Source of the DNA: Astropecten irregularis
Taxonomy: Eukaryota > Echinodermata > Asteroidea > Paxillosida > Astropectinidae
DNA length: 64,000 bases
NCBI GenBank assembly: GCA_963971285.1
Contig: OZ020262.1
Span: 5,737,036 to 5,801,035 of the forward strand
Direction of reading: 5' to 3'
A program made the translations under genes and the position numbers. A model generated the notes under the pieces. That model was not told the DNA's origin and made no database searches. It saw only the letters and a list, made by a program, of their open reading frames with translations. This document shows positions 875 to 24,745 of the stretch, piece by piece. How positions within the stretch are numbered: position 1 is the first letter of the stretch; every line of letters begins with the position of its first letter.

Positions 875-3800
875 GGTCCGTAGTTGGTGCCATAGTTTGG
901 AACACGGCAGACACCAACGTGCAAGAAACCCTGCCCATTGTACGTAACGCCAAGGAGTGCGACATCGCGCAGGCCAGCACCAGCATCTACCTGACGCTGC
1001 AGTATCCCAGCAACAAGACGCTCACATTCCTGTACAGCAGAAGCGGTCTGACCAAAGAAGAATCCTACTGGGTGCCATCGGCATTCGTCGAAAAGGTTGA
1101 AAAAAAGCTAAATTCAGTTTGATTTGTTCCTCCTTTTCCTTGATTTGGCGAAAGTTTTGTCAGCTGTTTGGAGACTTTTAAAATACTTCCACGTGTAGTT
1201 GCCACTTGTTTGAAATTGACGGGAGCAGGGTTCGAACGGGCGACCTCCTGAATACTGTACAGGCGCTCTACCAACTGAGCCATCCAGCCCTACGTAGGTC
1301 GTGACCCCAACAATTATCTTTGTTCGTTTGGCACTCAGAAGCCATGAAACCACGCACACACCACCATATCCCAAGGATCATTTCACTGATACGCGCAGCA
1401 ATGCTGCAACCTGGGAACGGTACATTGGGGATCACTCAAAGAGGATACGGTTTTTAATTAATATAATCATAAAATAACCACAAGGCAAACTGACTGAATT
1501 AGTTTGAGCAAATGAGAAATTGATTAAAAGCCGGGCGCATTCTCTTTGAAGGTGTACTGTTTCTGAGGTTGCAGTATTGCTAATGCTGCAAGTATTTTAA
1601 ATGATCCTTGGGATATAGCGGTATTTGCGTGGTTTCATGGCTTCTAACTGCCACACGAACAAAGATAATTGACTATTAGGGACACCACCACCACCTGCTG
1701 GAAAGATAAGTTGGTATGAGCGCCGGTACGGTATTCCGGAGGTCGCTGGTTCAAATCCTACTCCATTCAATTTTACTTTTTTGTTAAATTTTCAATGAAA
1801 TGAAAAAATTGGCATTTGACTGGTTTTAGAAGATAACTTGAGATCTCGGAGTTATATACCGGTAGTCACGAGTACCAGCACTTACCAGCCAAGTTATCCA
1901 TTAAATGGTTTGATAGGGCCTCCCTGTTAATAAAATTTGTATTGTATTTGCTCTTGGTACTTGCCATGGGCCATATGACCCATTCATTGCCATGTGACCA
2001 CACATATCAGGGCTCGACCTTAGCGGTCGCCCGGGTGCCAAATGCGACTCAAAAAAGCGGCGGGCGAGTCAAAACCCTTCTCTCGGTAGTCCGGCGGGCG
2101 ACTCAAATTTTGTTGAAATAAAGTGTAGAAAACAAAATATTCCTATGCCCGGCCGCTTATTTTTTAAACATTGACTAAAAAATACGCGGCCGAAAAGAAA
2201 ACGTACGCTGCCCGGCCGCGATATACATGTTCCGTACCGTCCAAAAATCCTACCCCGTACGGCAGATCTTCGGAACCAACCGAGCCTGTACAGTGCACAC
2301 ACACAGTACGTACGGTGTGTATGTAGTCTTTGCCCACACGTGGTTGAGACTGGTGCACGTTGTTTTGATATCGTAGCTTTTACGTGTGGCCGTGTGGGTC
2401 GGATACCAGTCGTAGAATATTCGAGATTATGACCATGCTGACTGCACGATGCATCGTGTTTACGTCTTCTCTATGCATTCATCGCCCTAGGAATTTTTCT
2501 CACGACGTTTGTTTTTAGATCAAGCACATGTACGTGAAAAGTGTGTTTCTTCTTGGACAAAATTACCGACTGAAATTCAAGTAAGATGTAGCTGATCACG
2601 AAAATGCGCTTTACGGTACGGTCAGAATATTTGTAATTGTACGGGGATCTCGCAACGATACAAATAACAATCGTGACAATGCATACATCGTGTTTCATGT
2701 CGGTGTTCATGACATTGTCGGAAAAAAAGATCGCGCTAAGATTTGCTTGGTCTGTCATGTCGGTAGAAATAGCGCAAAATAAAATTTGGCACCCTTAAAA
2801 ATAGCGGAAATCAGCTAAAAGCCGGGGTGTTCTGGAAGGGTCTGGTCAATTCAGTTGTAACTTTTAAGCACGCCACACCTGGCGTGGCGCCCCGGTACGG
2901 TACTCATCAACAGCCATTACGCAGCATACTTCCGGGTTCTTGATTTCTTATAATATTAAATTGCAGGTATTATACCTGGCAATGTTATACTCGTTTTACA
3001 AGTAATCTTCTAATATTTCCAATAAACTGATTTGCATTAATTAAACCAAAATAAACATATAATTAATGTTTTTAAATAATTTTTTTTTTAAGTGCAAGAA
3101 AACATTTGCTAGCGCAAAACTGAAGCTGATGTGCACTTTTGTTTATATATAAGTGTTGACTTCCAACTTTAGTTGTGATTGTGTAATATATTTGCAATTA
3201 GCGTACATTTTTATCAATTTAAACAAATACTGACATTTGGTTGAATGATTCAACTAGATATGAACTCTGAAGTATAACGTAGTTTAATACCAGTTACACT
3301 TGTTTGCCGAAATTGCAAATAACAATGTATTTTTATCAATTTTAAGTTGGATTAAAAAAATAGCATAAAACATATGCGGGCGAGTTAAAAAACTGGCGGA
3401 CTACCCAAAACTCTGGCTGGGTAGTCCGGTGAAAAAAAAAGTTAAGGGAGAGCCCTGCATATACAGCATATCTCATCAGGTGCCCTTAAAGGTACAGTAC
3501 ATGTTCGGAAACATACCCAAACAGAAATGTTCACAGATTTACGTATAACTTTCAGGTTATGAAGATGGTGCTGGTAGAAACATACCGTTCAAATATTTCT
3601 GCCTGAAATGGTGTATTTATCCAGAAATTTGTTTAACAAAGACCGAAAACAGTTTTGATCTTGGGGTTATAACAATTTTAAGAGGATGTTTCTACCATCA
3701 CCATCTTTATACCCAGTATAAAGTTATAGGTAAATCTGTGACGATTTCTGTTTTGGTATTCTACCAAAGTATGACAGTACCTTTAAATGCCTTTCAAAAG

Positions 3801-6800
3801 CACCTTCACCCAGAAAAGTGTATATTATTTTCTCCTCTGTAAGACATTTTACAGGTACCTAGCAAATAGTATTTATTGTTGACTTATTTGTTTACTCCTA
3901 GTGTTTATTGTTTACTCTCTCTCTTTCTGCGCAGGTGAACTTTGATCCCGAGGTCTTCTTCAACATGTTGCTCCCACCGATCATATTTTATGCTGGTTAT
4001 AGCCTGAAAAGAGTAAGTAAAACCTGGTACCAACATGCATGACCAGTCTTGGCCACTGTATACATTATTATGAGTACACTTGCTTTTGCAAATTCGCTTT
4101 AATGGGAGACTTTTGACTAACCATTGTTAATCTCAAGAGGGCGTGCTTCACCAGCCTTTGGTAAAAGTGCGTAGATTTTGTTGTCATTGCTTTTGTGCAC
4201 GAATATTCGTCATCAACACAACTGCCGTAAAATAAGCACATGAAAATGGCTGGTACATACTGTGCAGTGCCTGGTTGTGGTGGCAGGGGAGGACATGAGT
4301 TCCCAAGAACAAACAAATACAGAATCTGTGGAGATTGGCCATCAAAAGGGCATGTTACAAACGATCATGGTGGCTGACGGCAAACAGCATAGTGTTTTGT
4401 GCACAAAGTTTTTACTTTGGCAAGCGAGACCTAGCACATTATTCCTTTCCAAACATAAGAATTTCACCTCACTTTGTGTTTTCGGGCATTCAAATTGGGG
4501 TGGAGGGCAATGTCAATCTAAAAATTGTTTGTAAATTGCTTGATTTAATGTTCACAGCATTTTCCTGCGCCTTTTGGAGCTTTTTTGGACAATCGCCGGA
4601 CTTTAATAAAGCGTGTATAAAAGTTTTCAGGAGACCAGTTGTTTGCTGCCCTCTATATCGCTCCAAAAATCTCCCATTGTTAATGTGTACTTGCGCATTT
4701 CCATGGTTTTGGGACACTGTCACTTATATGAACAAAAATGTGTCGTGATTTGCTCTAAACATTCAATTCCGCTTCAGTTATATTTTCATCATCATTATTA
4801 ATTTTTGGTATTTTTCTTAATTTGTTTAAATTTTGTTTTACAGCGCCACTTCTTCCGTAACTTGGGTTCCATCTTGACGTTTGCAATGATCGGGACTGCA
4901 ATTTCATGTTTCGTTGTGGGGTAAGTTTATACTGAATGGCACAACCCTATTTGATAATACATCTTAAAGTTATAGAACAGGATTGCTAAGCGTCAAGAGT
5001 AATATTGATGCTTAGCAAATGTGTGTGGTTTCATGGCTTCTGACTGCCAAACGAACAAAGATTTTATTAGGGCCACCACCAACATAGGGCTGGATCTAGC
5101 TCAGTTGGTAGAGTGCCTATATGGTATTCAGGAGGTTGCTGGTTCGAATCCTGCTTTAGTCAATTTTACTGCCCCCATACACAGTACACAACTATTTAAA
5201 GCAGTTATCTGAATTTTTACCCAGAAAACCTATATTGTTCTTTTTCACCCATTTTCCCCCTATTTCTCTTTTGTTTTGTTATTTACAGAGGAATCATGTA
5301 CGTCCTGGTTGTCAAGGCGATGAAACGGGACGATTTCAGTCTCCAGGATTCCTTTTTCTTTGGGGCTCTGATCTCAGCGACAGACCCAGGTAAGCACACA
5401 AATTTTCCAAAAATATTTAAGGCAATATCATACTTTGGTAAGAATGGTAACATACAGCAACAAAAATGTTCACAGATTTACCTATAACTGGCAGGGTATA
5501 AAGATGGTGACGGTAGAAACATACCGTTAACATTTCTCTGCCTGAAATGCTGTATTTATCCAAAAAAGAGTCAAACCAATGACCACAAAACAGTTTTGAT
5601 CTCAGGGTGAGATCAAACCTCCTGTGAATAGATTTGAAAATACCTTGAGCATTCTTCACTGTTTGCTCAAAAAGTGGGCACCGTATGGAACTGGAATTTT
5701 CACAGATGACTGTTATTCCTTCCTTGATATTTTTGCCCATGAATCTGTATTTCTTTGGCAAAAACGCAAAGAATGAAGTTACCTTTCTATCATCTGACAT
5801 ATTTTTTCTGTGAGGGGACAAAGATAATTGACTATTAGGGACACTACACTCTAACATAGGGCTGGATAATTCAGTTGTTAGAGCCCTGGTACGGTATTCT
5901 GGAGATCGCTGGTTTGAGTCAATTTTGCATTGTTCACTTTTCAACAACTTACACATAATGTCAACGAATGCTGGAAAATATGCAATAAAGGCTTACTGAA
6001 GATGACATTTACCCATATGTAATCTAAATTTCTGTTTCTATTTCTATTTCTTGATCTCATCCAACAGCAATACAATTGCCAATTACAGTGAGATATTTAA
6101 AAAGAAAAAGAAGAAATAAATAAATAAATATTACGTACACTCAATTTATATAATAGTTACACACAATAAATAAATAAAGCTCTTCATAAAGCATAACATG
6201 ACACTAAGCACAAACAAACAAACACACCAACAAACAAATGCATGGAACAAAGAAAGGAATTTAACAAACAGATTGACACTCCAACAAATAAATATACAAA
6301 CAAGCAGACACACAACAGACAAGTAATCAATAAAAATTGTAAAATCTTGTGAAAATCCTTTTTTTGTGGGAACGGATTCTTCATTGAATTTTCTGACCCA
6401 TAGTTTTCTTGATCTCTCTTTTCAGTCACCGTTTTGGCCGTGTTTCACGACCTACAAGTCGACGTGGACATGTTTATTCTCGTGTTCGGGGAAAGTGTTC
6501 TGAACGATGCGGTGGCCATAGTGTTATCAAGGTACGTGTGTTTGAATCAATCGCATGCTGCTCGTTTTTCAGAAGACATGTAGTCCCTTCATTTGCTGAT
6601 TTTGCTGATAACTTGCTGCGGTTTATGGAAAGGTTGCTTGCTATCAGTTGTATTTAACCCTAACCCCCTAGGCCCTTGTACTAGGAACTTAGGAAGAATA
6701 CTGAATCAAACATACTTCAACAGTTGGTCACAGGTTTGGTAGGGATTGGTACTGAACCTGACAAACTTCAACAGACTCCAGCTGTTGGAGTTTGATTCAC

Positions 6801-9800
6801 TTGGTATGGTATGGTCTATGCCTTGATGTGTGGCTGTAGACCAACTGTCCCAAACCACACAGAATGCCACAATGTTTTTCAACAAAATTCCACAGTGCCT
6901 TTCTACACACAAGGCACCATCACAGCCTCCCATGCAACTGTACTATAGGCCATGGGTAGCCTTACCCACAAACAAAATGCCAGTGCACTACCACAAACTC
7001 CAACACTTGTTTCTACAGGTCTCATGCCTTACTTCTCCAAACCTGTCAGAATGAAACAGTGTACTCCTGGACCTTTGGTACTGAGTTGACTCAAACAAAG
7101 TCCAACAACAGGTCCTTACTGTTTGGTACTAAACAAGCCAAAACTCAACAGAAGTACCTGCGGGAGTTTGAGTGATTAGTGGTTAGGGTACAGTACAGTG
7201 GTAATAGAAGCTTTGGCTGTGGCTCGGAAGTAGATTCTCTGGTTTGAAAAGGAAAACAGAGCTTCAGCTTCAATGAAAAACTACAAATTATTTTTAGCTT
7301 ATGGACGACATAGCCGGAGCCTAAGCCTCCATTTCGTAACCCTCTATAGCTGGTACTTTGACTTTTAACCTTTGCCTTCCTCCTCCGATCCGAAACCTTT
7401 CTTCTCTGCAGGACGGTGGAGTCGTATGAGAGCGATTCCTTCGAAGCCGGCCCTGTCTTCAAGTCGCTCGGGATATTCATCGGCGTATTTGTGGGTTCCT
7501 TCGCCATCGGCTCCGTCATGGGCATCATCACGGCTCTAATATCCTTTGATGACCCTAGCTTGTGACTCAGGATCACTGTCTCCCCTCTCAAAAAGGAAAA
7601 CGTTGATTCCCCAAACAATCTGTCATTTGTTCAAGTATCAAAGGACAGTCTTGAAAAGGCAAAAGCCAAATTTTAATAATTTTAATAACCTTGCAAAAAA
7701 TCTTTACAATGACGAAAGAAGTTTGTCATGAAGTAGCTTATTTAATCATTTCAAATTTCTCTTCAAATTGTCCAGAAAATAAAATGACTTCGCCTCTCCA
7801 AAAATTTGCTTACATCTTTTGAGTAGGTAACGTAAGTTTTTTTGACTTTGCGCTCAAGGTAATGAAGGTTTGGAGATAACGTAGAATGGACCGTTCCAGC
7901 TTTGCTCTTAAGCCCACCTTAGCAATGCAACGTGTTTTACATGTTTTTAGGTTCATTGACTCAGTTGAAATCAAACTTACGCCCTTTTCCAAACCTTGGT
8001 TCCGGTTCCAGCTCCATTTTGTGAATCCATTCTAAAATAACTGGTATCAAAATACCCAGTAGAGGCTTTTGGCTGTGGTTCGGAAGTAGATTCTCTAGCT
8101 TGAAAAGGAAAACAGAGCTTCAGCTTCAATGAAAAACCACAACCTATATTTTCAGCATATGGATGTCAGAGCTGGAGCCTGAGCCTAAGCCTCAGTTTTG
8201 TAAACACCCTAAGAGTTGCCAAAAGGTTTAGAAAAGGGCCTCATTATAATACCACAAGGATACAAAATGTCCGTGACTTGATCTCTTCCTTAACGTGTAA
8301 GTTCTCACGTGACCAAATTCACCCGCATCCGGGACTTCCCCTTACTGGAGACTGGGATCTTCTTCATCATGTCTTACATGAGTTACCTGATGGCCGAAGC
8401 AGCTCAACTCACCGGTAAGTATGGTAGACACTGGGACTAGGAGCTTCCCCAATAGCTGTTCAAATGACTTTTTTGTTTCATGGCTTCTGACTACCAAACG
8501 AACAAAGGTTCTACCATCTATTTAAAGGTACTACCATACTTTGGAAGCATACCGAAACAGAAATCTTCACAGATTTACCTACAACTTACAGGGTATGAAG
8601 ATGGTGGTGGTAGAAACATACCGTTACAATTTTTCCGCCTGAAATGGTGTATTTATCCAGAAATTAGTAAAACAACGACCGAAAATCTGTTTGATCTTTT
8701 AAAAGATCAAAAATCAAAGAGAACAGGCTTAAGAAATACTGTGGCCGTTTTTCACTGTTTTCTCAAAAAGTGGGCACCGTATGGGACTGCAATTTTCACA
8801 GATGACTGTTACCGTATCTGTCATGATATTTTTGCCCATGAGTCTGTATTTCTGTGATAAAAACCAAAGTATGATACTGCCTTTAAGGACACCAACAACA
8901 TAGGGCTGGATAGTTGGTAAAAGTGTCGGTATTTCAATGGAAATAACAAAGCAATCATGAATGTTCTCACGCCATGAGGCAAACGGCTATAGATGCTTCC
9001 TGGGCAGAAGGGCTTAAAGGTAAAATATGACTTCCACAATTTAGACATAAGTCATCATTCTCAGACAATTATTCTGAGTATAATTCTCTCCAACAGGAAT
9101 CGTGGCCGTGCTCTTCTGTGGCATCATGCAGGCCCACTACACCTACAACAACCTGTCAGAGGAGTCCAAAAAGCGCACCAAGGAGGTATCAGAGCTGACC
9201 CAGTTCCTGGCAGAGAGCTTCATCTTCTCATACATGGGCATCTCCATGTTCAATCCCCGAAACCAGAAGTGGGATGCGGGCTTCATATTCTCCGCTTTTG
9301 TATCCTTTTTCGGGACATAGGATAAGTTACCCTTCCCAAGAACGTGTCTGAACGTTTTGTGAAATCGGCTGCTGTATCTTGAATATTTAAAGGTATGATA
9401 CATGATTGCTAAAGTTTAGAACAGCGCTCACACTTTGTCTAATCCAGCATGTACATAAAATAACACACCTGCAAAAATTTGAACTCAATCGGACATCTGA
9501 GTCATGAGAAAATAGCTATAAAAAAAAAACGACTCCGTTTTCCTTTTAAAACATAAAGAATGGTTTTGATCTTACCCCAAGATCAAAACTGTTTTCACTC
9601 TTTGTTTGACTAATTTCTGAATGACTGTTACTGTATCTGTTTTGATATTTTTGCCCATGAATTTGTATTACTTTGATAAAAACCAAAGTATGATACTACC
9701 TTTTATTCTGCAATCTGATTCCGTCACTCCTGGGGGATTCTCAGAGCTTGACAAACAGACGGCGATGACATGACATTCACTGAAATTTGATCTAATGAAA

Positions 9801-12800
9801 TCCCGACCATAGGAGGAAGGGAAAACAAATATCTGATTTACAATTTGCTACCATGTGAGGTCATTTTTTCCCTTGACGCCAAGTCCGATCAGTTTGCCAT
9901 TCTGGTGGGTCGTTGCCTCAATATCTACCCACTGTCGTTCTTGCTGAATCTTGGCCGGAAGCAGAAGATTCCTTGGAACATCCAGCACATGCTCATGTTC
10001 TCGGGTAAGTTATTGAGTCCTTACTTTTGTCCAACCATCTTGAAGTCAACAGACAGTGCAAGAGGACAAAGATTCAGGTCTTCAGGTCCCTGGGGTCGAT
10101 TTCACGAAGCTACTCCGCGTGATCGTAACTGGAGTTACGAAGGATGACCACTGGTCTTACCTGTTTAACTCTACGGTTGTGAGACATGGGGTCAATTTCA
10201 CGAAACTCGTCCCAACTCACTATCAATCGTAGGATTTATGATGCATTGCAGTCCTACATAGGATAAGACATCTATGATGGGTTATCCTTCGTAACTTGAG
10301 TTACAATCGATGGCAGGGCTTTGTGAAATCGACCCATGGACTTTGACTGGGGCCTGGGAGGCCACTCAATGTCTTCCGTTCTGGGTCTCTGAGGAGGATC
10401 CTTGGGTACCGCTGGTCGGACCGTGTGTCTAACGAGAGGTTACTCACGGAGAGTCAGATGAGACCTATTACCTGCATGATACGTGATGTATCTAGTGATC
10501 CTGCCAGACGAATTCTCTCTATGAGAGAACCTGACTTGCCCAGTAGGGTGTCCGCATGACACATGGTTGCGTCAGATGGATCATTATTTTGCTGAGATGG
10601 GGATGGGTCGCGTGGCACCATTTATATCAGAAGACCGAAGGAGTAGACTAATGTTTTTGTGTGTGTTTTGGGTGTTTGATCTATAGGTTTGAGAGGGGCC
10701 ATTGCGTTTGCGCTTGTCATACGCAACACGGCCACTGTGGCCCGCCAGCTCTCACTCACGGCCACCCTGGTCATCGTTCTCAGTACGGTGGTGCTCTGTG
10801 GAGGGATGACCACTCAGATGCTTACCTGGCTGAAAATAAGGTACCTGTACTTCTCATTTGGGGGTACCCGACTAAGCAGCTTCTTCCAAACCCTGTCCAG
10901 GCTCTGGCTCCGGCTTGAGATCCAAGTCTCTAAGATCCAACTTGAAATCAAGATTTAGGCTTTTGGCTTCGGCTTTGCAGTTTACCCTCCGGTTTCGAGT
11001 GTTAAGAAAGGTGAGCATTGAGGTGAGGGATAAGCGAAAGCCTGTATTTGCAGCGTTTTTTGTAGCGAGTGACGAAGCTTTAGCCAGAGCCTGAGACAGA
11101 GGTTTGGATACGGTCTCCTCTGTTTCCCTGCAAGCAGCCAGGTCTGGTCTGGTACCCAGAGGACAACCAATTTGCCATGTGTGTAGTTGGCTTATGTTGC
11201 CAGCCTAAACTCATCGCCGTCTGGTTCCCAGAGGTCAAGCAATGACAGCGGCATAGTATGATTATGTTACACCAGAGTCGCCAGCCTATTTTGAGCACAA
11301 TTCCTATATGGGCCTTTTCGACATGATGCTTGATGAGGCTAGATTTGAGATTTATTATGCTACCTCCATTTTGTGTCCAAAATGGAATGAAGGGCTTGAG
11401 ATACATGGCGAAGCTTGAGCCTTTCTTCTGCTTCATCATGTGGCCCAATCCCTTTGTTCATTTTGTGGGCCTCAAATGGCAGTAGCAAAATAAGTCCCAA
11501 GCCTAGCCTCAAGCCTGGCTTGATAAAGCCGGAATGATAGAGTGTTGGAATGATACTGGTTTGGAAACTTGACCGATCAGGGGCCAATTTTCCCTACTTG
11601 AGCCAAAAATTGGATAGGCATGAAAATTCCTCCTTGACAAAAACAGGAATCTCGATCAAATTTTGCATTGATGTCCATTGCATTTGGCTTGCATTTTGCT
11701 ACCATTTTTGTACTTAGCATGACATTCACATGCAGTTTTGCTGGGTAAATGATTTTCTTTTGTTCTTAAGCGTATTTTGCTAACTGAGCAACTCTGTGAA
11801 AATGGCCTCAGGGATTTGAACCGGAGACCTCTGGAACACAGTAGCAGTGTTTTACTCCGCCCCGTACATATCCAACCCTATGATGGGTCCTTCCTATTAC
11901 TAACCTATCTGCCAGGACAACAAGAAGCTAAAAATAACTCATTAACTGCCATTTTATTTGCAATCATTCATTTTGGGAATTCTAGAAAAGTGCTCTATTC
12001 AGTCAAAGCCGTGGTTTATTATTTTCTGTCAGCACTGAAACTTCACCTTAAAACTGTCACCTCGTCTTGCACTTATAACTCATATTAAATCATTTTTGAA
12101 ACACTGATTTAATTTCTTCGGTAGTGGTGGCACTTTTAACACTCATAATTGGGTTGTCTTCAACAATCTATTGGCTTACTGACACTTCATATAAGTCTGA
12201 AAACAAGCAAAAAGAAAACACTTTCACGAAAAATGCAAAACCTGTATTAAAAGGTAATATCATACTTTGGTTTCTGTCAAAGAAATACAGATTCATGGGC
12301 AAAAATATCAAGGAAGATACATTAACAGTCATCTGTGAAATTTCCAGTCCCATACGATGCCCACCTTTTGAGAAAACAGTGTAAAACGGCCACAGTATTT
12401 CTTAAGTCTTTTCTCTTTTATTTTTGATCTTTTAAAAGATCAGAAATAATTTGGGTCACTGGTTTTCCTCTTTTCTGGATAAATACAGCATTTCATGCAG
12501 AACAATTTTAAAGGTATTTTTCTACCATCACCATCTTCATACCCTGTGAGTTATAGGTAAATCTGTGAAGATTTCTGTTTTGGTTTCTTACCAAAGTATG
12601 ATACTACCTTTAACACTTCCTTTCCAAAGAACAACAATTTAACTTGGTGCACCATTTATATCAGCATATCTCGTGTACTATAAATTGTCACCCTTCATAT
12701 TCTAATACAAGATTTCACTAACTGCATTATTTTCACCAAATAACTAGAGGTGGCATCATTCGTTCACTCTAAAAAAAAAATGCATACAATTCCATTATGT

Positions 12801-15800
12801 TTCACAAATATGTTTATAATTGGATGTTGGTCATGTTGTGCCACTCTTCTCAGAAATAAATGTTTTTCAAACCTTGCAAATGACACTGTGCTGCTTACTC
12901 CATTTGATACTAAACTCCCGATGATCTTCATACTCCCATTGTATAATTTATCGGAAATCGGCAACATTATCAGCCGTGAAATTGTAACGAAAATGAAATT
13001 TGCACAAAATGGTCAAGTACTCCCCAAATTCGAGTACATGGAATCGAGTACGGGCCAAGTACATTTTTATTTTTGAGTACTTTTAATCGAGTACGGGCCG
13101 AGTATTTTGTCTGTACTCGAGTTGTACTTGAGTACGAGTACGAGTACTCCAACACTGCTATTTGGGTCATTCCACTAAGTTGGGCCACAATTTGCTGTGG
13201 TGTCCCTTGTTACATCAGTGGTAATAAACATCTTGTCACCTTCATGTGGATTCTAAATTGGCATCGTTGTATACCTTACAAGGTTCTTGCAGAGTTGTGC
13301 TTTATCTTTGCAGAGTAATATGACTCACTCTGTTGTAATGTAAAAATAGCAGGCAGTAGAAGTTACCGATGTAACAGGGAACGGCGTCACAAACTGTGCC
13401 CCAACTTTGTGGAATGACCCATTTACCAACAGTTCACTCCGTTGATGTTATTCCCTGTCCTAATACAATAATACTTGGAGTTGGGAGTTGGGAGGGCCTG
13501 ATGTTTCGATCCCAGCAGGATCCCTTTCTCAAAGGCTGAAGAGCCTCTGTATTGCTTGTATCAAACAGAGTTAAAGTGAACGTGATGCCACTACTGCCTC
13601 ATAACACCATGGTGCTGCCACTATTTTTTTCTCTCAATATCTCTCTCTTTCTGCATGCTCCTCCCCTCTCCCTCCTCCCTTTTTCGTTGTTGTCTGCTCA
13701 AAAAACATAAACAATCCCAAACAAACTCCCGAAATGCGATCATAAAGGGTATCGGTCAGGCATTCGGAGTCTTTCTGGGCCAGACCCGATGAGCCTTCTT
13801 GGAATGCTGTCATGGTTGTATCGGAGGACGGGGGCAACTCAACTTCCACTATGATTGTTTCCAGGGTGGGCGTGTCGGACGAGGACTCCTCCCAGCAGGG
13901 CATGCAGGTGGCCGGATCGGTAAGTTTCCCCTGGGGGCGTCGAGCAATCTCCGGTTTTTTTTCTTAATTTGTTCCTTGAGAGGTACAAATCACTTTTACA
14001 GAAGACAGCCTCAGTTTTCCAGAGGCTATTGAAAATCCTGGCAAATTCTGGCAAATCCTTAAAGAGGATGTTCAACACTCAACAAACCTCGCTTTATTAG
14101 TTAGGACTATTGTTCTTAAATTACTTGAAATGAGAAAAAATATTTATCTCACACTGAACACAGAAAGAGTCTTTTTTAATGATTTTTCTCTCAGCCCGCA
14201 AGCTCCCCAAAATTCAGATTCTCTGAATTTCGTCAATGAGGGCAGCAGAACAGATTGTGTGAGTTTGTGACGTCAGATACGGGAGCCTTTTCTTTTGAAC
14301 AAAAGGCTCCCATATCTGACATCACAAAATCACAACAGATTTGTCTGCTGCCCCCATTGAACAAATTCGGAGAATCTGAATTTTGGGGAGCTTGCGGGTT
14401 GAGCATGTTGAGAGAAAAACCATCCAAAAAGACTCTCTTTCTGTGTTCAGTGTGAGATAAATATTTTTTTTCTCATGTCAAGTAATTTAAGGATTATAGT
14501 TCTAAAAAATAAAGCGAGGTTTGCTGAGTGTTGAACATCCTCTTTAAAAAAAACAGGAATATCCTAAAAAATCCCGGAAAATCATGGAAAATCATTGAAC
14601 ATCCTGGGAAGAATCACATGTTATAGGAAACACCTACTCATCTGGGTCAAGAATATCGTTAAATGTTTGACTTTAGTAACTTGGGGAATGTTCCTAGCCC
14701 AAATGCTCCATGACGTCTTGATGTCATTTAATAAGCATTCATCCATTCGATAAATTTTAATTGACTGTAAATCGTACATTTGGTTTCTCCCTTTAGCATC
14801 ACACCGAGCTGGACGTCAGAATAAGGAAACGATACGAGCAGGCTTGGATTGTTCGACAGTGGTACGATTTTGACCACAAGTATCCTTTGTGTCGTCTAAT
14901 GCACCATGAATTTGCTTAATACAGAAGCGAGCCCAGTCTATTATGGTTTTTGCCAATCCCAGATTCTGGGGTTCGTATTCATGAGCACCAGCTGTTCTGC
15001 TTCATACTCGCTGCATATTCACTGCGTATAAGGCGCGACGTTCCATTTCGAAGTGTCTGCCCTGCGGGTATAGAACGCACACTGCGTAATGAAAGTGCGC
15101 GTCTTTGTGTGCAGCATTTGGTACGCACCAATTTGACCCATATGTGTACAAGTTAAAATGTTTCAACATCCGCCGGATGCGTACACGCAGAGACTTGAAA
15201 GATGGCAGAGTATGAACATCAAATGCGACATTCGCGTTGTTCTTTTGCGCGCGCATAAAAACGCAGCGAGTATGGACCAGCCTTTATGCATTACATTTGA
15301 ATTTCACTTGCGAACAAGTTAAAATATGTCAACATCTGCCAGATGCGTACACACTGCACAGAGTTGAAAGATGGCTGAATGTGAACATCGAATGCTTCAT
15401 TCGCGTTGTGCTTTGCGCACGCGTAATCTGGCGAGTATAAACCAGCTTTTATGCATTACATTAAAATTTCACTTGATAGAACTTGCGCAAAACAGAATGC
15501 AATAGATATGCCCAAGTCATGTATTAAATTTGTGTCTTTTTTTAAGAGCGATCGAGTGGAAATTCCTTGACAATGCTTTGCCAGATTTTTTAAACCCATC
15601 TTCACAAGGAAAGGTGCCGATCTGAAAGAGACTCTGCCGACGTGCTGCTACCCCATTGCACGATGTCTTACCGTAATGGTAATAATTTTTCTGACAGTGA
15701 TTTAGTTCCAAATACACTTTTTTGTGACGTGGAAATTGGATGTGGAATGATGTGAATTACATAATGATAATAATAATGGACACTTATAATGCGCCGCTAT

Positions 15801-16778
15801 CCGCCAAGCATGACGCTCATGGCGCAAATAAATTATTATCCCTGGTCATCGGGCCATAATTTACATTCCTGAAACCATCTCAACTCCCTGGGGAGTATAC
15901 CGCCCCGGCTGCTGTATTCAGCGCACAGAGGCTAATCAAACCACAAAGCCATCTCTACCCTCGTAGGTACCCATTTACACCTGGGTGAAGAGGAGCAATA
16001 TGTGACAAAGCGTCTTGCACAAGGACGCAAGCACCATTAACCCATGGCTGGATTCAAACCCACAATCTGTACATTGTAAATGGGTACCTGTGAGGGTAGA
16101 GATGGCTTTGTGTTTTGATTAGCCTACGTGCGCTTATAGCAGCCAGGGCTGTATACTCCCCAGGGAGTTGAGATTGTTTCAGGAAAGTAGCCCAATGACC
16201 AGGGATACATGCATTAAGTATTTATCGTTATTACTAGATTTGGCGGCGTATAAATCATACGTATTATTATAATTGTTATGATTCTCTGAAATATCATTCC
16301 GGAAACATTATCTTGGTTGATGAGCAGTTTACAACGGTTTATCATCTATTATCATCTATCAAGAAAGATTTGAGGCTTTGCATGGTGACAATTGGTATGT
16401 GGATCGGTTTGCGGAAACACCATGTAAGAATCGTTCGTACTTTCGCACTTCTATTCCGTTCGCACTTCTCGTAAGGTATCAACGTTTAGACTAGCCTGCT
16501 CTAGTCATCATCAGTTAGACATCAACTTGATAAATTTGTTTGTTTATTTGTTTGTTTGTTTGTTTTGCCAGGACGAGCACATTGACGAGGACAGCGACAG
16601 CGACTTGATACTAGAGGACAACAGCTCAACGGGAGACCAGCTCCAATCCCCCGGCCTGGACGCGTCCCACCAGCCAGCCATTCACAACGAAGACGACGCG
16701 GGTTTGGACGGTGACCTCGGACTGGGCACGCATCAAATCAAAGGCTTGAGTATGAAGCCCATGCCGACCGATGTATAA
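875..16778 (+). CDS. SLC9A6/7/9-like: Organellar Na+/H+ exchanger, NHE6/7/9 type (5' partial)
   Basis: Fourteen exons join in frame: 875-1095, 3935-4012, 4844-4920, 5289-5389, 6426-6531, 7412-7538, 8309-8414, 9097-9299, 9893-10004, 10687-10840, 13865-13919, 14797-14879, 15585-15672, 16572-16778 (stop TAA). The roughly 571 residues cover most of the antiporter membrane domain and the tail. Family signatures visible in order are [15 protein letters not shown], a SATDP turn, [14 protein letters not shown] with the Asn-Asp pair expected at the ion site, [27 protein letters not shown] and [13 protein letters not shown]. The acidic tail ends with a GDLGLG motif also found in NHE9. The family exchanges luminal H+ for Na+/K+ in endosomes and the trans-Golgi. 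The first exons (start codon, first helices) lie upstream of the window. Three introns are U12-type. Invertebrates usually have one gene for this subfamily, so I do not choose between 6, 7 and 9. Phases agree at every junction. Confidence 0.93.
1216..1500 (-). mobile_element. tRNA-type SINE with leader (minus copy)
   Basis: The tRNA-like part (reverse strand) has an A-box-like GGCTCAGTTGGTAGAGC and a B-box-like GTTCGAACC at about 1230-1295. It is preceded on its own strand by the recurrent leader (CCAAACGAACAAAGAT, GGTTGCAGCATTGCTG). The body end is diverged. It lies head-to-head with the plus copy at 1530-1800. Confidence 0.75.
1530..1800 (+). mobile_element. tRNA-type SINE with leader (degenerate plus copy)
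   Basis: It carries the same leader (TTTCATGGCTTCTAACTG, GACTATTAGGGACACC) followed by a tRNA-like part with damaged A box (GATAAGTTGGTATGAGC) and a recognisable B box (GGTTCAAATCC). Together with the element at 1216-1500 it makes an inverted pair inside the first NHE intron of the window. Confidence 0.65.
2008..3457. mobile_element. Non-autonomous DNA element with CAGGGCTC termini
   Basis: The left end CAGGGCTCGACCTTA and the right end TTAAGGGAGAGCCCTG form imperfect terminal inverted repeats 1450 bp apart. Both subterminal regions carry related GCGGGCGAG and TAGTCCGGCGG/TAGTCCGGTG motifs. No transposase frame is visible. The ends resemble hAT elements, but I see no clean 8-bp duplication. 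Confidence 0.5.
3488..3785. mobile_element. MITE, AAAGGTA...TACCTTT family
   Basis: It starts with AAAGGTACAGTACATG and ends with CCAAAGTATGACAGTACCTTT. The interior has the family blocks CACAGATTTACGTATAACTT and its inverse TTATAGGTAAATCTGTG. This is one of many copies in the window. Confidence 0.75.
5020..5180 (+). mobile_element. tRNA-type SINE fragment
   Basis: The leader end (CATGGCTTCTGACTGCC) is joined to the tRNA-like part GGGCTGGATCTAGCTCAG...GGTTCGAATCC. The tail is truncated. It sits in the NHE intron 4921-5288. Confidence 0.7.
5419..5960. mobile_element. MITE (AAAGGTA family relative) followed by a SINE fragment
   Basis: 5419-5787 is a diverged AAAGGTA-family MITE (AATATCATACTTTGGT at the left, AAAGAATGAAGTTACCTTT at the right). 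5815-5950 is a degraded SINE (TAATTGACTATTAGGGACAC, then a tRNA-like part with a weak B box). The long antisense frame over this region comes from the repeats. Confidence 0.6.
6100..6330. repeat. A-rich simple and cryptic repeat (AAATA/ACAAA)
   Basis: Runs of AATAA and CAAACAAA units, including AAATAAATAAATAAATA near 6115. It is low-complexity intronic sequence with no coding signal. Confidence 0.6.
7190..8215. repeat. Two copies of a dispersed repeat (GGCTGTGG-TTCGGAAGTAGATTCTC type)
   Basis: About 7190-7345 and 8058-8215 share the blocks TCGGAAGTAGATTCTC, GGAAAACAGAGCTTCAGCTT and CAATGAAAAAC. An inverted, related copy lies at 54243-54475. The two copies here flank NHE exon 6 and the AT-AC intron donor. 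Class of element unknown. Confidence 0.6.
7539..8308 (+). other. U12-type AT-AC intron in the NHE gene
   Basis: The donor reads ATATCCTTT right after the Ala-Leu codons. The branch site TTCCTTAAC (8286-8294) is a perfect U12 consensus, and the intron ends in AC at 8307-8308, about 14 nt after the branch A. Only this junction restores the family sequence (ITAL|VTKFT). No usable GT donor is present at the conserved position. Confidence 0.93.
8524..8885. mobile_element. MITE, AAAGGTA family
   Basis: Termini are AAAGGTACTACCATACTTTGG and its inverse ending in GTATGATACTGCCTTT. The centre has the palindromic GATCTTTTAAAAGATC that marks this family. It lies in an NHE intron. Confidence 0.8.
9300..9892 (+). 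other. U12-type GT-AG intron in the NHE gene
   Basis: The donor is GTATCCTTT. The branch-like TCCCTTGAC (9869-9877) differs by one base from TTCCTTRAC and lies about 16 nt before the AG at 9891-9892. There is no polypyrimidine tract directly before the acceptor, as is typical of minor introns. Splicing joins FIFSAF to [16 protein letters not shown] in frame. Confidence 0.88.
9389..9704. mobile_element. MITE, AAAGGTA family (ACATGATTG subtype)
   Basis: The left end is AAAGGTATGATACATGATTG and the right end AGTATGATACTACCTTTT. The interior TGAGTCATGAGAAAATAGC block is shared with copies at 24931, 26722 and 31640. It occupies much of the second U12 intron. Confidence 0.75.
10187..10337. mobile_element. 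Fold-back element, GGGTCGATTTCAC family
   Basis: The sequence folds on itself: GGGTCAATTTCACGAAACTC at the left against GGGCTTTGTGAAATCGACCC at the right, with CAATCGTAGG and AGTTACAATCGATGG inside. Related copies lie at 17852, 30473, 33935, 35175 and 59216. A fragment lies just upstream at about 10085. Confidence 0.75.
10385..10650 (+). mobile_element. LINE 3'-end remnant (RTE-type reverse transcriptase C-terminus)
   Basis: The + frame reads [17 protein letters not shown] and [14 protein letters not shown], with stops and deletions. A parallel remnant lies on the other strand at 46855-47103. The terminal block RLYGHVARFPxxDPARRIL is typical of RTE-like elements. It is non-functional. Confidence 0.65.
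10841..13864. other. 3.0-kb NHE intron with repeats
   Basis: Contents are a diverged GGCTTTGGCTTCGG repeat (10900-11170), an AAAGGTA-family MITE (12250-12611) with GATCTTTTAAAAGATC at its centre, a tract rich in GAGTACGAGTAC (13010-13160) ending in CCAACACTG like a hAT terminus, and a GATCC-TGCTAGGATC-type repeat (13479-13560). No missing exon of the family was found. Confidence 0.6.
12250..12611. mobile_element. MITE, AAAGGTA family
   Basis: It starts with AAAGGTAATATCATACTTTG and ends with CAAAGTATGATACTACCTTT, giving inverted termini of about 20 bp. The central palindrome and the GGTAAATCTGTGAAGATT block are present. It is a near-complete copy. Confidence 0.85.
14059..14547. mobile_element. 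Fold-back element flanked by TTAA (piggyBac-like MITE)
   Basis: The two halves of 14063-14543 are inverted repeats of each other almost to the centre (GGGAGCCTTTT / AAAAGGCTCCC near 14295). Termini are AGAGGATGTTCAACAC and its complement, and each is flanked by TTAA (14059-14062 and 14544-14547). TTAA duplication is the mark of piggyBac transposition. No transposase is present. Confidence 0.8.
14880..15584 (+). other. U12-type GT-AG intron in the NHE gene
   Basis: The donor is a perfect GTATCCTTT. The branch site TTCCTTGAC (15563-15571) is perfect and the AG is at 15583-15584. Splicing joins WYDFDHK to FFKPIFT, matching the NHE9 segment WYSFDHKYLKPILT. The intron also contains a diverged direct duplication of about 166 bp (15148-15313 and 15314-15478). 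Confidence 0.9.
15148..15478. repeat. Diverged direct duplication, about 166-bp unit
   Basis: Two copies (15148-15313, 15314-15478) begin ACAAGTTAAAAT and share TTGAAAGATGGC, TTCGCGTTGT and TTTATGCATTACATT. The family resembles the GTGCGTTCC elements at 46418 and 58373 in its TTGCGC/ACGC-rich content. Confidence 0.6.
15759..16280. mobile_element. Long fold-back element with ATAATAATAATGG ends
   Basis: 15838-15975 and 16070-16210 are inverted copies (CTCAACTCCCTGGGGAGTAT against ATACTCCCCAGGGAGTTGAG). The outer ends have ATAATGATAATAATAATGG and a matching TATTATTATAATT. It carries no coding sequence. Confidence 0.7.
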
Positions 16779-19179
16779 ATATATATGTATGTATATACCG
16801 TATATATAGATACCTATACATATATATCTCATGGTCTACCTTAGGGAAACATTCTCGTGCACAAACTTTACTTTCCTATTTCTAAACATCCTCCAAAACC
16901 AATGAACTTGAAATTGACATTATGTTCCTGTTGAGAGCATTCTTGATTTTCTATAAAAATTTAGAGAGTAAAAATGTGTTTATAAAAGGTACCTAAGACA
17001 TTAGGGAGACACCAAAATGTCTCCTTAATGTTCGGTGTCTCCCATTTTCAAATTTGTCTCAAATTTTTAGCAAGGTCCGTTCCAGGTGTATACATATATA
17101 ACTCTACATGGTCTACCAAATTGCACTGCGCACTTGCGCTAAAAATAGCACCGAACCTCAGACAAACATTGCAACGTGGCCATGCAAACGTGTGGTTAGT
17201 GGGGGTATGTGCATGCATGGTGTGACGTCATTAGTGCGGAACGCTATTAGGGAAACATTCCCATAGGGTCGTGCACAAAACTTTACTTTCCTATTTCTAA
17301 GCATTCTCCGAAACCAATGAATGTGAAATTAACATACGTTCATATTGAGAGCATTCTCTGTCTTATATTAAAATGTGGAATCCCGCTCCAGTCAATTTTT
17401 CTTTGTTCACTTTTCAATGACTTAAAGATTCAGTCAGTTTCCCTTGTGGTTATTTGATGATCATATTAAGATATGGACTTTAAAAAGGTACCTTAAACAT
17501 TTAGGGAGACGCCAAAGTGTCTCTCTAACGTAGATTTTATAGCTGACTTTCAGTCAATTTCGCCAAACTCATCGTAACTTACTATCAATCGTAGGGCTGG
17601 ATAGCTCAGTTGGTAGAGCGCCTGAACTGTATTCAGGAGGACGCCGGTTCAAATCCCGCTCCAGTCGGTTTTCCATTGTTCACCTTTCAATGACTTCAGT
17701 CAGTCAATGAAATTCAGTCAGTTTCCCTTGTGGGTATTTGATGATTTAATCGTAGGACTTATGATGCTTTGCAGCCCTACATAGGATACAATTGGTTATC
17801 CTTCGTAGCTCGAGTTACGATCGATTGTAGGGCTTTGTTAAATCGACCCCTGGGGGTTGATTTCACCAAACTCATCGTAACTTACTATCAATCGTAGGAC
17901 TTTGATGCATTGCAGCCCTACGTAGATCCTTCGTAGCTCAAGTTACGATCGATGGTAGGGCTTCGTGAAATCAACCACTTGTCTCCCTAAGGTCCGATCC
18001 AAGAGTTATATACACATTACTAGATATATCACTCTTTAATACTACATGTATCTGCAACAGGTTTTTGCAGTGTGCTCAGTAACTTGACTTATCTTTGCGA
18101 AAGGATTGTTGGAAATCAATATTATCAATTTGTAATTTCTACTAGCATCCTGAGATAAGCTATTTGATAATAAGAAGGTCCCTGGTCACATATGAAGTTG
18201 AATAGCTTAGATGGCAGTGCAAAAAATACTTTTCATGCTAAGCAAAATTGTTGTGCTTAAGCAGCTCTATGAAATTGGCCCCATGTCACATCTCAATTTA
18301 TAAGTCATTCCACAAGTTTGGACATGTTGTAACACGATTGCCCACGATGTACCCAAGCAGTAATTACCTCATATTTATTAAGTTGAGTGCTTGTATGAAA
18401 ATTGTCGCTCTTAAAAGTAGAATTATTATCTGCATCTTGAACAGCATATTGCCAATAGCCAGGGGCCAATGTCACGGCCCTGCTTAGCACAAACATTTGC
18501 TAAGCATGAAATTTCTGTCTTCATAAAAACAGGATTAACAACCAAATTTCCATGTGTTGTTTTATCACTTGTGATTGTTCTTTGGCTGCTGTTGGCTGAC
18601 CATGAATATCAAATGGAATTTTAAATGGTGGTTTGTTTTATGCTAAGCAAATGTTTGTGCTTAGCAGCGTTATGAAATTGGCCCGTGGAGTTATGGTTAA
18701 AGAGTTATAGAGGAGTATAACGGTAGTTTGTGAATGTATTTTCAGAGACATTGTCCCAAATCCTACTGGAAAAGTGTGTGGAATGATCAGACCCAGCTCC
18801 TGTATAAACCATGCAGTGTTATGCCCACGATTTGTACTGTTATACATGTATTATCAAATTGAGTATTGTAAAGTATTGTATCTTCTATGATCCTAATTAC
18901 ACACGTAAGCAGAATCTGTCAAATTCTGTTAATTGACTAGCTTGACAAAAACTTTGCTAAGCATGGCTCAAACTTCAGGTCAAAATTAACCACTGTCGAG
19001 GATCAGGCTTAAAGTTTTAATATTTTAAATTTTCCAGAAAGCGTAAAAAATACCATAGCACACCACAAAATGGCTCGATGTTGGTATTTTTGGTGACTTT
19101 ATAGGGAGCTACAGGTCAGAAAAGTTAGTGTGATCTCAAGTGTAATAATCTGTTGATAACTTGTGTGTGAAAGGTACTT
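16779..19179 (+). other. NHE 3' UTR / intergenic stretch with nested repeats
   Basis: A block near 16840-17060 recurs at 17250-17530 (GGGAAACATTC, TTTACTTTCCTATTTCTAA, TTAGGGAGAC). 17551-17852 is a fold-back copy split by a SINE; 17852-17976 is another copy; 18190-18285 and 18461-18687 belong to the CTTAGCAC fold-back family. No AATAAA lies close to the stop codon, so the end of the transcript is unclear. Confidence 0.5.
17595..17748 (+). mobile_element. Short tRNA-type SINE, tRNA head at 5' end
   Basis: 17595-17666 folds as a cloverleaf: 7-bp acceptor GGCTGGA/TCCAGTC, D arm GCTC/GAGC, anticodon arm CCTGA/TCAGG with loop ACTGTAT, and T arm GCCGG/CCCGC with loop TTCAAAT. The anticodon position reads TGT (Thr by the code), but the base before it is C rather than the invariant T. 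The tail CAGTCAGTTTCCCTTGTG follows. AATCGTAGG flanks both sides as a target-site duplication within a fold-back element. Confidence 0.8.
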
Positions 19180-19189
19180 GATCAGTGGA

Positions 19190-20870
19190 CTTGTCCACAG
19201 CAAGGCAGCAATGAATGCCTCCACCACTAGGGTATATGGAAACCAGTCCCTCACACTGAAACAAGACTGATGGTCTCTTTACAGTATCAGTAGGAATGGA
19301 AGGGGTACTTAGTCCACAGCAAGGCAGCAGTGAATGCCTCCACCCCTATGGTGTGGAGAAACCAGTCCCTCACACTGAAAACAAGACTGATGGTCTCTTC
19401 ACGGTATAAATAGGACTGGAAGGGGTACCTAGTCCACAGCAAGGCAGCAATGAATGCCCCCACCCCTATGGTGTGGAGAAACCAGTCCCTCACACTGAAA
19501 CAAGACTGATGGTCTCTTCACAGTATAAATAGGACTGGAATGGGTAATAGTCCACAGCAAGGCAGCAATGAATGCCTCCATCCCTATGGTGTGGAGAAAC
19601 CAGTCCAGTCCCTCACACTGAAAACAAGACTGATGGTCTCTTCACGGTATAAATAGGACTGGAAGGGGTACCTAGTCCACAGCAAGGCAGCAATGAATGC
19701 CCCCACCCCTATGGTGTGGAGAAACCAGTCCCTCACACTGAAACAAGACTGATGGTCTCTTCACAGTATAAATAGGACTGGAATGGGTAATAGTCCACAG
19801 CAAGGCAGCAATGAATGCCTCCATCCCTATGGTGTGGAGAAACCAGTCCAGTCCCTCACACTGAAAACAAGACTGATGGTCTCTTCACGGTATAAATAGG
19901 ACTGGAAGGGGTACCTAGTCCACAGCAAGGCAGCAATGAATGCCCCCACCCCTATGGTGTGGAGAAACCAGTCCCTCACACTGAAACAAGACTGATGGTC
20001 TCTTCACAGTATAAATAGGACTGGAATGGGTAATAGTCCACAGCAAGGCAGCAATGAATGCCTCCATCCCTATGGTGTGGAGAAACCAGTCCAGTCCCTC
20101 ACACTGAAACAAGACTGATGGTCTCTTCACAGTTTAAATAGGACTGGAATGGGTAATAGTCCACAGCAAGGCAGCAATGAATGCCTCCACCCCTATGGTG
20201 TGGAGAAACCAGTCCCTCACACTGAAACAAGACTGATGGTCTCTTCACAGTACACATAGGACTGGAAGGGGTAATAGTCCACAGCAAGGCAGCAATGAAT
20301 GCCTCCATCCCTATGGTGTGGAGAAACCAGTCCCTCACACTGAAACAAGACTGATGGTCTCTTCACAGTACACATAGGACTGGAAGGGGTACCTAGTCCA
20401 CAGCAAGGCAGCAATGAATGCCTCCATCCCTATGGTGTGGAGAAACCAGTCCCTCACACTGAAACAAGACTGATGGTCTCTTCACAGTATAAATAGGACT
20501 GGAATGGGTAATAGTCCACAGCAAGGCAGCAATGAATGCCTCCACCCCTTATGGTGTGGAGAAACCAGTCCCTCACACTGAAACAAGACTGATGGTCTGT
20601 TCACAGTATAAATAGGACTGGAAGGGGTACCAAGTCCACAGCAAGGCAGCAATGAATGCCTCCACCCCTATGGTGTGGAGAAACCAGTCCCTCACACTGA
20701 AACAAGACTGATGGTCTCTTCGCAGTATAAGTAGGACTGGTAGGGTAATACACCTAGTCCACAGTAAGACAAGGATTCATATATCTCCTTACGAAGTGGA
20801 CAAACCAGTCCCCCATACTGCGTACAAGACTTATGACTTCTTCACAGTACAACAAGATATAGAAAACATA
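19190..20870. repeat. Minisatellite, unit about 119 bp, with dimeric higher-order structure
   Basis: About 14 units share GACTGATGGTCTCTTCACAG, TCCACAGCAAGGCAGCAATG and TATGGTGTGGAGAAACCAGT. Between about 19505 and 20100, units alternate between a GGGTACCTAGTCC form and a GGGTAATAGTCC form, the latter with a duplicated CCAGT. This gives a repeat of about 240 bp occurring about three times nearly unchanged. Edge units (19190, 20760-20870) are the most diverged. Open frames here are by-products. Confidence 0.95.
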
Positions 20871-23640: not shown

Positions 23641-24745
23641 GGCGCCATTTTGAATGTTTTGAATCGCCTGGCAGCGACGTAAACTACTGACTCGAAAACC
23701 ACCGGCTGCCGAAGGTAAATATCAAATGTATTGATTTAAAATTGAATATTAACCTAAAATTTGATATATTTTTGAAAATAGTTGCCTTATTTATCATTTC
23801 GAATTGGCTTTGGTGGTTGACGTGGTGAAGGAAATGTGAAAAACGCTGTCGAAATTGTCAATGACATGTCAAACTCAAAACGAGTCAAACTCAAACTTGA
23901 AACGTATAGGCCCTATGGGAATGTGTGCGTGAATCATGGGCATAAACGAGAAAGTCTTGTATTTCCGACAGTATACACACGATTTCTTCCTCTTCTTCTT
24001 TCAATAATCTATTCCCGTGCATTTGTTTTTCTAATTGGTCAGAAAAAAACTAAAGAAAATTGCACTTGAAGTTTGAGCGGAGAACCGGCATGATTAGCCT
24101 AAATTATCAACGAAAAAAAGTTAGAATCAGTGCGATCATCCGGGCACTTTCATCTCATGAACTTGACAACCGATGCAAATATACACATGTATGTTTGTTG
24201 GATTTTAATTTTGTTTCATCTTCTTTTGTTTATTATTAAAACACTTAAACTTGTTAAAGATACAACTTTAACTTTGTGTGTTTATTTATTAGGGCCTAAC
24301 TTAATTTATTAATTTCACGTATATATTAATTAAAAAGCCGTATCCTCTTTGAGTGATCCCCCATGTACCGTTCCCAGGTTGCAGCATTGTTGCGTGTATC
24401 ATTGAAACGATCCCTGGGGTGTGGCGGTGTGTGAGTGCTTTCATGGCTTCTGACTGCCAAACGAACAAAGATAGTTGACTATTGGGGTCACCACCAACGT
24501 AGGGCTGGATGGCTCAGTTGTTGGTAGAGCGCCTGTACGGTATTCAGGAGGTAGCCGGTTCGAATCCCGCTCCAGTCAATTTTTCTTTGTTCACCTTTCA
24601 ATGACTTAAAAAAACTCAGTCAGTTTCCCTTGTGGTTATTTCACGTATATTTATTAACTTATCATGCTTATTAATTTGATTCAGCACTCAGCAGCCCAAC
24701 AATTGTAAGTCCATACTCCAGTCCCGGAGCCTCCACTCCAGCACA
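23641..24745 (+). promoter_or_regulatory. Putative ZBBX promoter, non-coding first exon and 5' UTR
   Basis: Sequence ending at 23714 (CCGAAG|GTAAAT) looks like a short untranslated first exon; the next acceptor is AG at 24683-24684 and the ATG is at 24746. An ATGCAAAT octamer lies just upstream (about 23630). Within the exon, 23663-23675 reads ATCGCC-T-GGCAGC, one base off the RFX X-box half-site pattern, and a forkhead-like GTAAACT follows at about 23678. Transcript data are needed; the exon call rests on the donor site and position. Confidence 0.4.
24325..24637 (+). mobile_element. Full-length SINE with 5' leader, target-site duplication intact
   Basis: ATTTCACGTATAT occurs on both sides (24312-24324 and 24638-24650). 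Between them lies a leader of about 175 bp, then the tRNA-like part (24503-24577, with an extra TTG in the D loop) and a tail ending CCCTTGTGGTT. Because the duplication encloses the leader, the leader was part of the inserted element. Confidence 0.85.

Follow-up and report, generated by a model that had tools for sequence, protein, structure and literature searches.

Does a single starfish gene need both spliceosomes, and how old is that arrangement? The question is raised by a Na+/H+ exchanger gene of Astropecten irregularis, lying in a 64,000-nucleotide stretch of DNA (the window), in which a sequence-only reading had proposed three U12-type introns, one of them with AT-AC ends. We consider it highly probable (about 0.93) that the exchanger pre-mRNA needs both spliceosomes, that three of its introns are U12-type, and that the AT-AC intron was probably inherited from before the split from SLC9A8. 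U12 introns in the Na+/H+ exchanger family are already known. What we add is an AT-AC position common to the SLC9A6/7/9-type and SLC9A8-like genes of one genome.

The exchanger gene and its U12-type introns

The gene, on the (+) strand, encodes an exchanger of the SLC9A6/7/9 type, an assignment made by sequence matches, with NHE8 absent from the matched solved structures. Its protein matches NHE9 and NHE6 (E about 1e-143) far better than NHE3 (2e-59) or NHE1 (about 1e-54), and it contains Pfam PF00999 (E 6.7e-75). The matches bear out the Na+/H+ exchanger named by the sequence-only reading and support a predicted product that is an endosomal/trans-Golgi Na+(K+)/H+ exchanger. This was the only SLC9A6/7/9-type gene found by our search of the A. 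irregularis genome. The mitochondrial COX1 translates best with the echinoderm code, consistent with a sea star.

We found 14 introns in the gene, of which three (the 7th, 9th and 13th) are U12-type. The window opens about 1.3 kb downstream of the end of coding exon 1, whose donor is TAC G/GTAAGC. In the gene model, coding exon 2 (875..1095) is followed on the same strand by exons at 3935..4012, 4844..4920, 5289..5389, 6426..6531 and 7412..7538, the last ending ...GIITAL and also placed by alignment with NHE6 and NHE9. Here the first U12-type intron intervenes (7539..8308, +, phase 0), with donor ATATCCTTT, branch TTCCTTAAC at 8286 and the end CAC, so that its AT-AC termini are as proposed. 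The next exon (8309..8414) starts VTKFTRI. The exon at 9097..9299, ending FIFSAF, is separated from that at 9893..10004, starting FAILVGR, by the second U12-type intron (9300..9892, +, phase 0), a GT-AG intron with donor GTATCCTTT, branch TCCCTTGAC at 9869 and the end CAG. After exons at 10687..10840 and 13865..13919, the exon at 14797..14879 ends WYDFDHK with its final codon split by the third (14880..15584, +, phase 2), again GT-AG, with donor GTATCCTTT, branch TTCCTTGAC at 15563 and the end CAG. An exon at 15585..15678 and the final exon at 16572..16778 (stop TAA) complete the model. Coordinates, motifs and phases (0, 0, 2) all agree with those first proposed.

The U12-type call rests on donor, branch, spacing and termini together. 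All three introns carry the exact 9-mer of the donor consensus (A/G)TATCCTT(T), and their branch sites agree with TTCCTTRAC at 9/9, 8/9 and 9/9 positions (in order along the gene, as below). Counted back from the 3' end of each intron, the branch A is 15, 16 and 14 nt away, within the expected range of about 10-20 nt. Under approximate scoring matrices, the three donors reach 15.8, 16.7 and 16.7 bits as U12 sites, far above their scores as U2 sites (-6.4, 1.8 and 1.8). Branch scores are 15.1, 11.1 and 14.7, against a best of 7.9 among the gene's other 10 introns in the window. Given such branch-like scores in other introns, the donor tells more than the branch motif does by itself. Placement of the junctions is unique, as sliding any of the three introns by up to 6 nt in either direction alters the mRNA. 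Across the first two, the spliced protein aligns ungapped with NHE9 and NHE6; the third lies outside the aligned part and is placed by the open frame.

The sequence-only reading had also held that no other intron traced in the window's four genes shows U12 signals. This stands for the 10 remaining introns of the exchanger gene, whose U12 donor scores range from -28.8 to -7.6. For the four genes, it agrees with a strict scan of both window strands, which returned no donor/branch pair outside the exchanger gene at a branch cut-off of 11 bits, one that would miss introns like the SLC9A8-like one described below (branch 8.1). Another candidate U12 donor, at 56262 (+), GTATCCTTG, was rejected. It lies 96 nt beyond an exon end at 56165 that has a GTAAGT donor, the strict scan pairs it with no branch and acceptor, and by eye it falls on no exon end.

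Some U2-type use is possible at the two GT-AG introns because U2-like donors lie near both. Within -130..+150 of the donor, one of 8.4 bits is found 93 nt inside intron 9300..9892, and GTG/GTACGA (5.2 bits) lies 18 nt, or six codons, upstream of intron 14880..15584. The latter, in particular, would suit a twintron, in which competing U12 and U2 site pairs produce slightly different exchangers; human SLC9A7 is listed as a twintron gene, with forms of 725 and 727 aa. However, GTG/GTACGA ranks close to the weakest of the 10 U2 donors in this gene (0.6 to 11.2 bits), and around the AT-AC donor the same interval contains no U2-like donor of at least 4 bits. We consider twintrons unlikely here.

An AT-AC position shared with an SLC9A8-like gene

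A paralogue on contig C9 of the same genome, a candidate NHE8/SLC9A8, has an AT-AC U12-like intron at a codon and phase identical to those of 7539..8308. Its protein is 45% identical to the window protein and, among solved structures, matches NHE9-type chains best (E 2.7e-81), ahead of NHE1 (about 1e-54), with no NHE8 structure among the matches. NCBIfam TIGR00840 ('sodium/hydrogen exchanger 3') matches both proteins and does not tell them apart, a point against the SLC9A6/7/9 assignment of the window gene. In the paralogue, the intron has the donor ATATCCTTT, an AC end and the branch GACCTTGAC (8.1 bits). This branch score hardly exceeds the 7.9 of a U2 intron of the window gene, and the U12 status therefore comes mainly from the donor and the AC end.

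The position of 9300..9892 is also split in the SLC9A8-like gene, by an intron that lacks a U12 branch and has the U2-type donor GTAAGTATCCTCA. At the third U12 position that gene is unsplit, the exon continuing (by eye) through KWDTKYFVPFF. Six of the eight intron positions compared are common to the two genes, namely the two U12 positions that fall within the compared part and four other phase-matched ones; exon boundaries in the SLC9A8-like gene were placed with homology in mind, so the p value of this sharing is flattering. An NHE1/3-like gene of the same genome shares none of its four introns and has none at either U12 position, which rules out that all NHE paralogues share them. A second plasma-membrane-like NHE fragment, on contig C27 at about 9.79 Mb, was partly inspected. 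A peptide-pattern search of viral contigs for relatives matched 96 stretches, none encoding one.

Because codon, phase and subtype are the same in the SLC9A8-like gene, the AT-AC intron is probably older than the SLC9A6/7/9-SLC9A8 split. Independent gain or gene conversion could also place one intron at the same point in both genes, and our comparison is of one genome. Yet independent gain of an identical rare subtype at one codon is improbable, and recent conversion is disfavoured by four extra shared positions in proteins of such low identity. We give this explanation little credence. The earlier suggestion that some positions may be ancient fits what is in print. In Table 2 of Lin et al. 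(2010, PMC2831892), fly Nhe3 (CG11328) and human SLC9A7 have a common U12 AT-AC intron. The fly intron is the 5th of 12 and the AT-AC intron of the window gene the 7th of 14, each among the first half of the introns of its gene in the same family. Note that Nhe3 is one entry among the 19 fly U12 introns of that table, whereas the window gene has three such introns, and that the likeness is at the level of gene family. Two U12 positions are common to plant and animal Na+/H+ antiporters according to PMC2426677 (citing Zhu and Brendel 2003). Plant NHX5/NHX6, which like the window gene encode intracellular Na+/H+ antiporters, have U12 introns (PMC4892727, PMC3422263). SLC9A8 itself is named among U12-intron genes in PMC8329584, a likeness to the A. 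irregularis paralogue at the level of the gene. PMC7968993 does not mention SLC9A8, and PMC4710014 yielded nothing on this question. The sources searched, in the parts accessible, contain no statement of co-located minor introns in SLC9A6/7/9 and SLC9A8; coverage was partial, and this is weak evidence of absence.

A more extended history is possible, and we put it forward only tentatively. The AT-AC intron and the GT-AG U12 intron next to it may each have been minor introns already in the SLC9A6/7/9-SLC9A8 ancestor, before animals and perhaps before plants and animals separated, the second having since become U2-type in the SLC9A8-like gene through insertion of GTAA. The donor GTAAGTATCCTCA resembles a U12 donor preceded by these four bases. 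Conversion from U12 to U2 type is usually proposed to proceed via a single C-to-G change, and an insertion, if true, would be a different route.

Chance controls and predicted dependence on the minor spliceosome

The donor 9-mer by itself was dropped as proof. With up to one mismatch it occurs 29 times in the window against 38 expected, and the exact 9-mer occurs 8,169 times genome-wide against 10,469 for its reversed pattern. Because it is unenriched, our case was built on the joint signal together with the reading frame. Exactly three exact donors occur in the window, all on exon ends with a correctly spaced branch and acceptor. The (+) strand has four donor/branch/acceptor pairs, one a cross-pairing, and the (-) strand none. 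In first-order Markov resamples of the window, this combination, a pattern picked after the sites had been seen, gave at least three pairs in 0/200 and at least one in 6/200. That the motifs are chance, and that the major spliceosome removes these introns at other GT-AG sites, would accord with the unenriched 9-mer and the two nearby U2-like donors, but is scarcely credible given the joint placement, the resamples, the unique junctions and the lack of a U2-like donor near the AT-AC site.

The genome also has genes for the four snRNAs specific to the minor spliceosome. Among the candidates scored, U6atac, U12, U11 and U4atac each gave one match above the family cut-off. The U11 gene begins AAAAAGGG and the U12 gene, on its own strand, reads GAGTAAGGAA; by eye, these are able to pair with the donors and branch sites, respectively. 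By the established mechanism, U11 would pair with the (A/G)TATCCTTT donor and U12 with the TTCCTTRAC branch motif. U4atac/U6atac would join next, U6atac would replace U11, and one machine would cut AT-AC and GT-AG ends alike.

If any one U12-type intron is retained in the predicted mRNA, the reading frame runs into a stop within 6 to 13 codons. Failure at any of the three would thus end translation early, and exchanger output would fall with minor-spliceosome activity. Because any of the three would have this effect, it is a fair inference that expression would depend strongly on U11/U12. Fly data bear on such dependence in both directions: none of 15 Nhe3 probes changed in minor-spliceosome mutants, which counts against it, and Nhe3 protein was reduced in miso-null ovaries, which is contrary.

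Few genes have three minor introns. Olthof et al. (2019, PMC6717393) give three such genes in human and three in mouse, which the window gene resembles in this respect. An AT-AC position, phase and subtype persist here between paralogues only 45% identical, and the pair offers a within-genome test of minor-intron persistence and of conversion to the major type. We predict that these animals would control endosomal pH less well when the minor spliceosome is limiting.

Three U12-type introns in one Na+/H+ exchanger gene

The exchanger gene on the plus strand of the window carries three U12-type introns. Their positions, read again in the sequence, and their phases in the gene model (0, 0, and 2) are exactly those given by the sequence-only reading. 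From the first exon inside the window (875) to the stop codon (16778), the model has 14 exons and 13 introns, with the frame open throughout. An extra coding exon, ending in TAC G|GTAAGC, lies in the sequence upstream of the window (L011). The gene thus has at least 14 introns, of which the U12-type introns are the 7th, 9th, and 13th. The first (7539-8308, phase 0) is an AT-AC intron with donor ATATCCTTT and branch TTCCTTAAC, the branch A lying 15 nt from the intron end. The second (9300-9892, phase 0) and third (14880-15584, phase 2) are GT-AG introns that both have the donor GTATCCTTT; their branches are TCCCTTGAC (branch A 16 nt from the end) and TTCCTTGAC (14 nt).

The near-perfect minor-spliceosome signals first noticed by reading were borne out by scoring with approximate U12 and U2 matrices. 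As U12 sites the three donors reach 15.8 to 16.7 bits, as U2 sites at most 1.8; the branches score 11.1 to 15.1. The other 10 window introns of the gene score −28.8 to −7.6 bits as U12 donors and at most 7.9 for branch-like motifs. The claim that no other intron is U12-type holds for these 10; the other three genes were covered by the window-wide scan alone. This strict scan of the whole window detected no further donor-branch pair elsewhere.

The donor motif by itself is uninformative. With one mismatch allowed, the 9-mer occurs 29 times in the window versus 38 in shuffles, and exact matches genome-wide number 8,169 versus 10,469 for a reversed control pattern (fewer than control in both cases). 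It is the donor-branch-acceptor combination that is informative. Using a pair pattern set after the sites were seen, the window was resampled 200 times under a first-order Markov model: at least one pair occurred in 6 resamples, and three pairs in none; the real window has four on the plus strand (three true and one cross-pairing) and none on the minus strand. More telling than the resampling is placement: all three exact donors in the 64 kb (both strands) sit on exon ends. No shift of up to 6 nt of any U12 intron preserves the mRNA. In three alignments, the window protein is ungapped against solved NHE9 and NHE6 at the first and second U12 junctions; the third lies outside the alignment and is supported by the open frame.

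Among solved structures, NHE9 and NHE6 match best (E about 1e-143), well in front of NHE3 (2e-59) and NHE1 (about 1e-54), which marks the gene as an SLC9A6/7/9-type exchanger. The Pfam assignment is Na_H_Exchanger. A genome-wide protein search (19 candidates scored) returned 15 matches: 9 in the window gene, 5 in two genes on contig C9, and 1 on contig C27. The six other matches are 26 to 52% identical, versus 73 to 98% for the window gene's own exons, and were therefore judged not to be 6/7/9-type. The window gene is thus the only such gene found in this search.

Repeats in the window and COX1 matches elsewhere

The third U12 intron contains a 169-bp tandem duplication (15148-15475; 81% matches). 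The intron before the exon directly 5' of this U12 intron holds five pairs of nested inverted repeats (14059-14547; arms of 37 to 96 nt, complementary at 73-92%), which may be a fold-back mobile element. About 2.4 kb past the exchanger stop codon starts an array of about 13 copies of a 119-bp unit (19193-20750), partly with a 243-bp higher-order period. Within 38698-43395, about 85 copies of a 35-bp unit (40168-43140) are flanked on both sides by arrays of similar-looking, GTAGTTCCCCCAGTATGAAGTAGTGCCCCCG-like units; this looks like one satellite inserted into another, and the repeats probably account for the long open frames of this region. Three tRNA-Thr-like predictions (17595-17667, 24503-24578, and 25807-25879), with similar GGCTGGATAGCTCAGTTGGTAGAG pieces recurring by eye in the stretch read, suggest tRNA-derived short repeats.

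No stop interrupts the mitochondrial COX1 on contig C168 when it is read with codes 4, 5, 9, 13, 14, or 21. By eye, its five AAA codons fall at mammalian Asn residues and the ATA codon of DIGT at Ile, a pattern consistent with the echinoderm code (9) or the flatworm code (14); the two differ only in TAA. The animal was taken for an echinoderm, and the appearance of the sequence tentatively suggested a sea star. Another COX1 match (C131:32162-33484) has a 552-amino acid open frame without TGA, and its contig may be bacterial. A partial match with seven TGA (C25:9951047-9952018) has probably been copied from the mitochondrion into the nuclear genome.

An AT-AC position shared with a paralogue

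One of the C9 genes, which we take to be SLC9A8-like, encodes a protein 45% identical to the window protein. Between VSAL and LLKHIDL it has an intron that starts with ATATCCTTT and ends in TAC. When aligned, this AT-AC intron falls at the same codon boundary, and in the same phase, as that of the window gene; its branch motif (GACCTTGAC) is weak (8.1 bits) and lies 13 nt from the end. The compared part has eight introns in each gene. Six match in column and phase, both U12 positions of that part among them (nominal hypergeometric P = 4e-13, with boundaries placed with homology in mind). The comparison was confined to exons with placed SLC9A8-like counterparts, leaving out window-gene 875-1095 and all after 10840. 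In the same alignment comparison, none of the four introns of the NHE1/3-like gene, a further paralogue, is at a window-gene intron position.

The intron of the SLC9A8-like gene (C9, minus strand, about 21.57 Mb) at the second shared position is U2-type, with donor GTAAGTATCCTCA and no U12 branch (best −3.5 bits), where its counterpart in the window gene is U12-type. The GTATCCT found 4 nt inside it could be the remnant of a U12 donor or could have arisen by chance. At the third U12 position, no intron was seen by eye in the SLC9A8-like gene. Judged from the alignment, the AT-AC intron probably predates the split of SLC9A6/7/9-type and SLC9A8-type genes.

Expected dependence on the minor spliceosome and known precedents

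In the minor spliceosome, U11 and U12 bind the donor and branch jointly before U4atac/U6atac.U5 arrives, and AT-AC and GT-AG ends are treated alike. The genome has one match above the family cut-off for each of the U6atac, U12, U11, and U4atac genes (39 to 49 candidates scored). By eye, U11 starts with AAAAAGGG and the U12 gene, on its own strand, includes GAGTAAGGAA; as read, these would be able to pair with the U12 donors and branch sites of the window gene. Retention of the first, second, or third U12 intron leads to a stop within 8, 6, or 13 codons, respectively, so RNA left unspliced at any of them would be expected either to be held back or to be degraded. Minor splicing is reported to be slower and potentially rate limiting (PMC8329584). 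Fly evidence on Nhe3 dependence is mixed: one study has none of 15 Nhe3 array probes altered in U12-spliceosome mutants (PMC2952598), and another has Nhe3 protein lowered in miso-null ovaries (PMC12084885).

The family has published precedents. Intron 5 of 12 in fly Nhe3 is an AT-AC U12 intron with a U12 counterpart in human SLC9A7 (Lin et al. 2010, PMC2831892), and Basu et al. 2008 (PMC2426677), with reference to Zhu and Brendel 2003, report two U12 positions common to the Na+/H+ antiporters of plants and animals. SLC9A6 is treated as a minor-intron gene (PMC6865273), SLC9A7 is among human twintron genes (PMC3564746), and SLC9A8 is among named U12-intron genes (PMC8329584). In Arabidopsis u11-48k plants, mis-splicing affects introns of NHX5 and NHX6 (PMC4892727). 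Human and mouse each have 50 genes with two minor introns and 3 with three (Olthof et al. 2019, PMC6717393), which places the window gene at the top of that reported per-gene range. The starfish Asterias rubens has a minor-intron density comparable to vertebrates, and between human and Arabidopsis minor introns are less conserved than major ones, contrary to Basu et al. (Larue and Roy 2023, PMC10639083). A limited search, largely of excerpts, found no published statement of an AT-AC intron common to the SLC9A6/7/9 and SLC9A8 types.

The observation of the sequence-only reading is thus confirmed and its interpretation supported. U12 introns in this exchanger family were already known, with the probable pre-split age of the AT-AC intron a modest extension.
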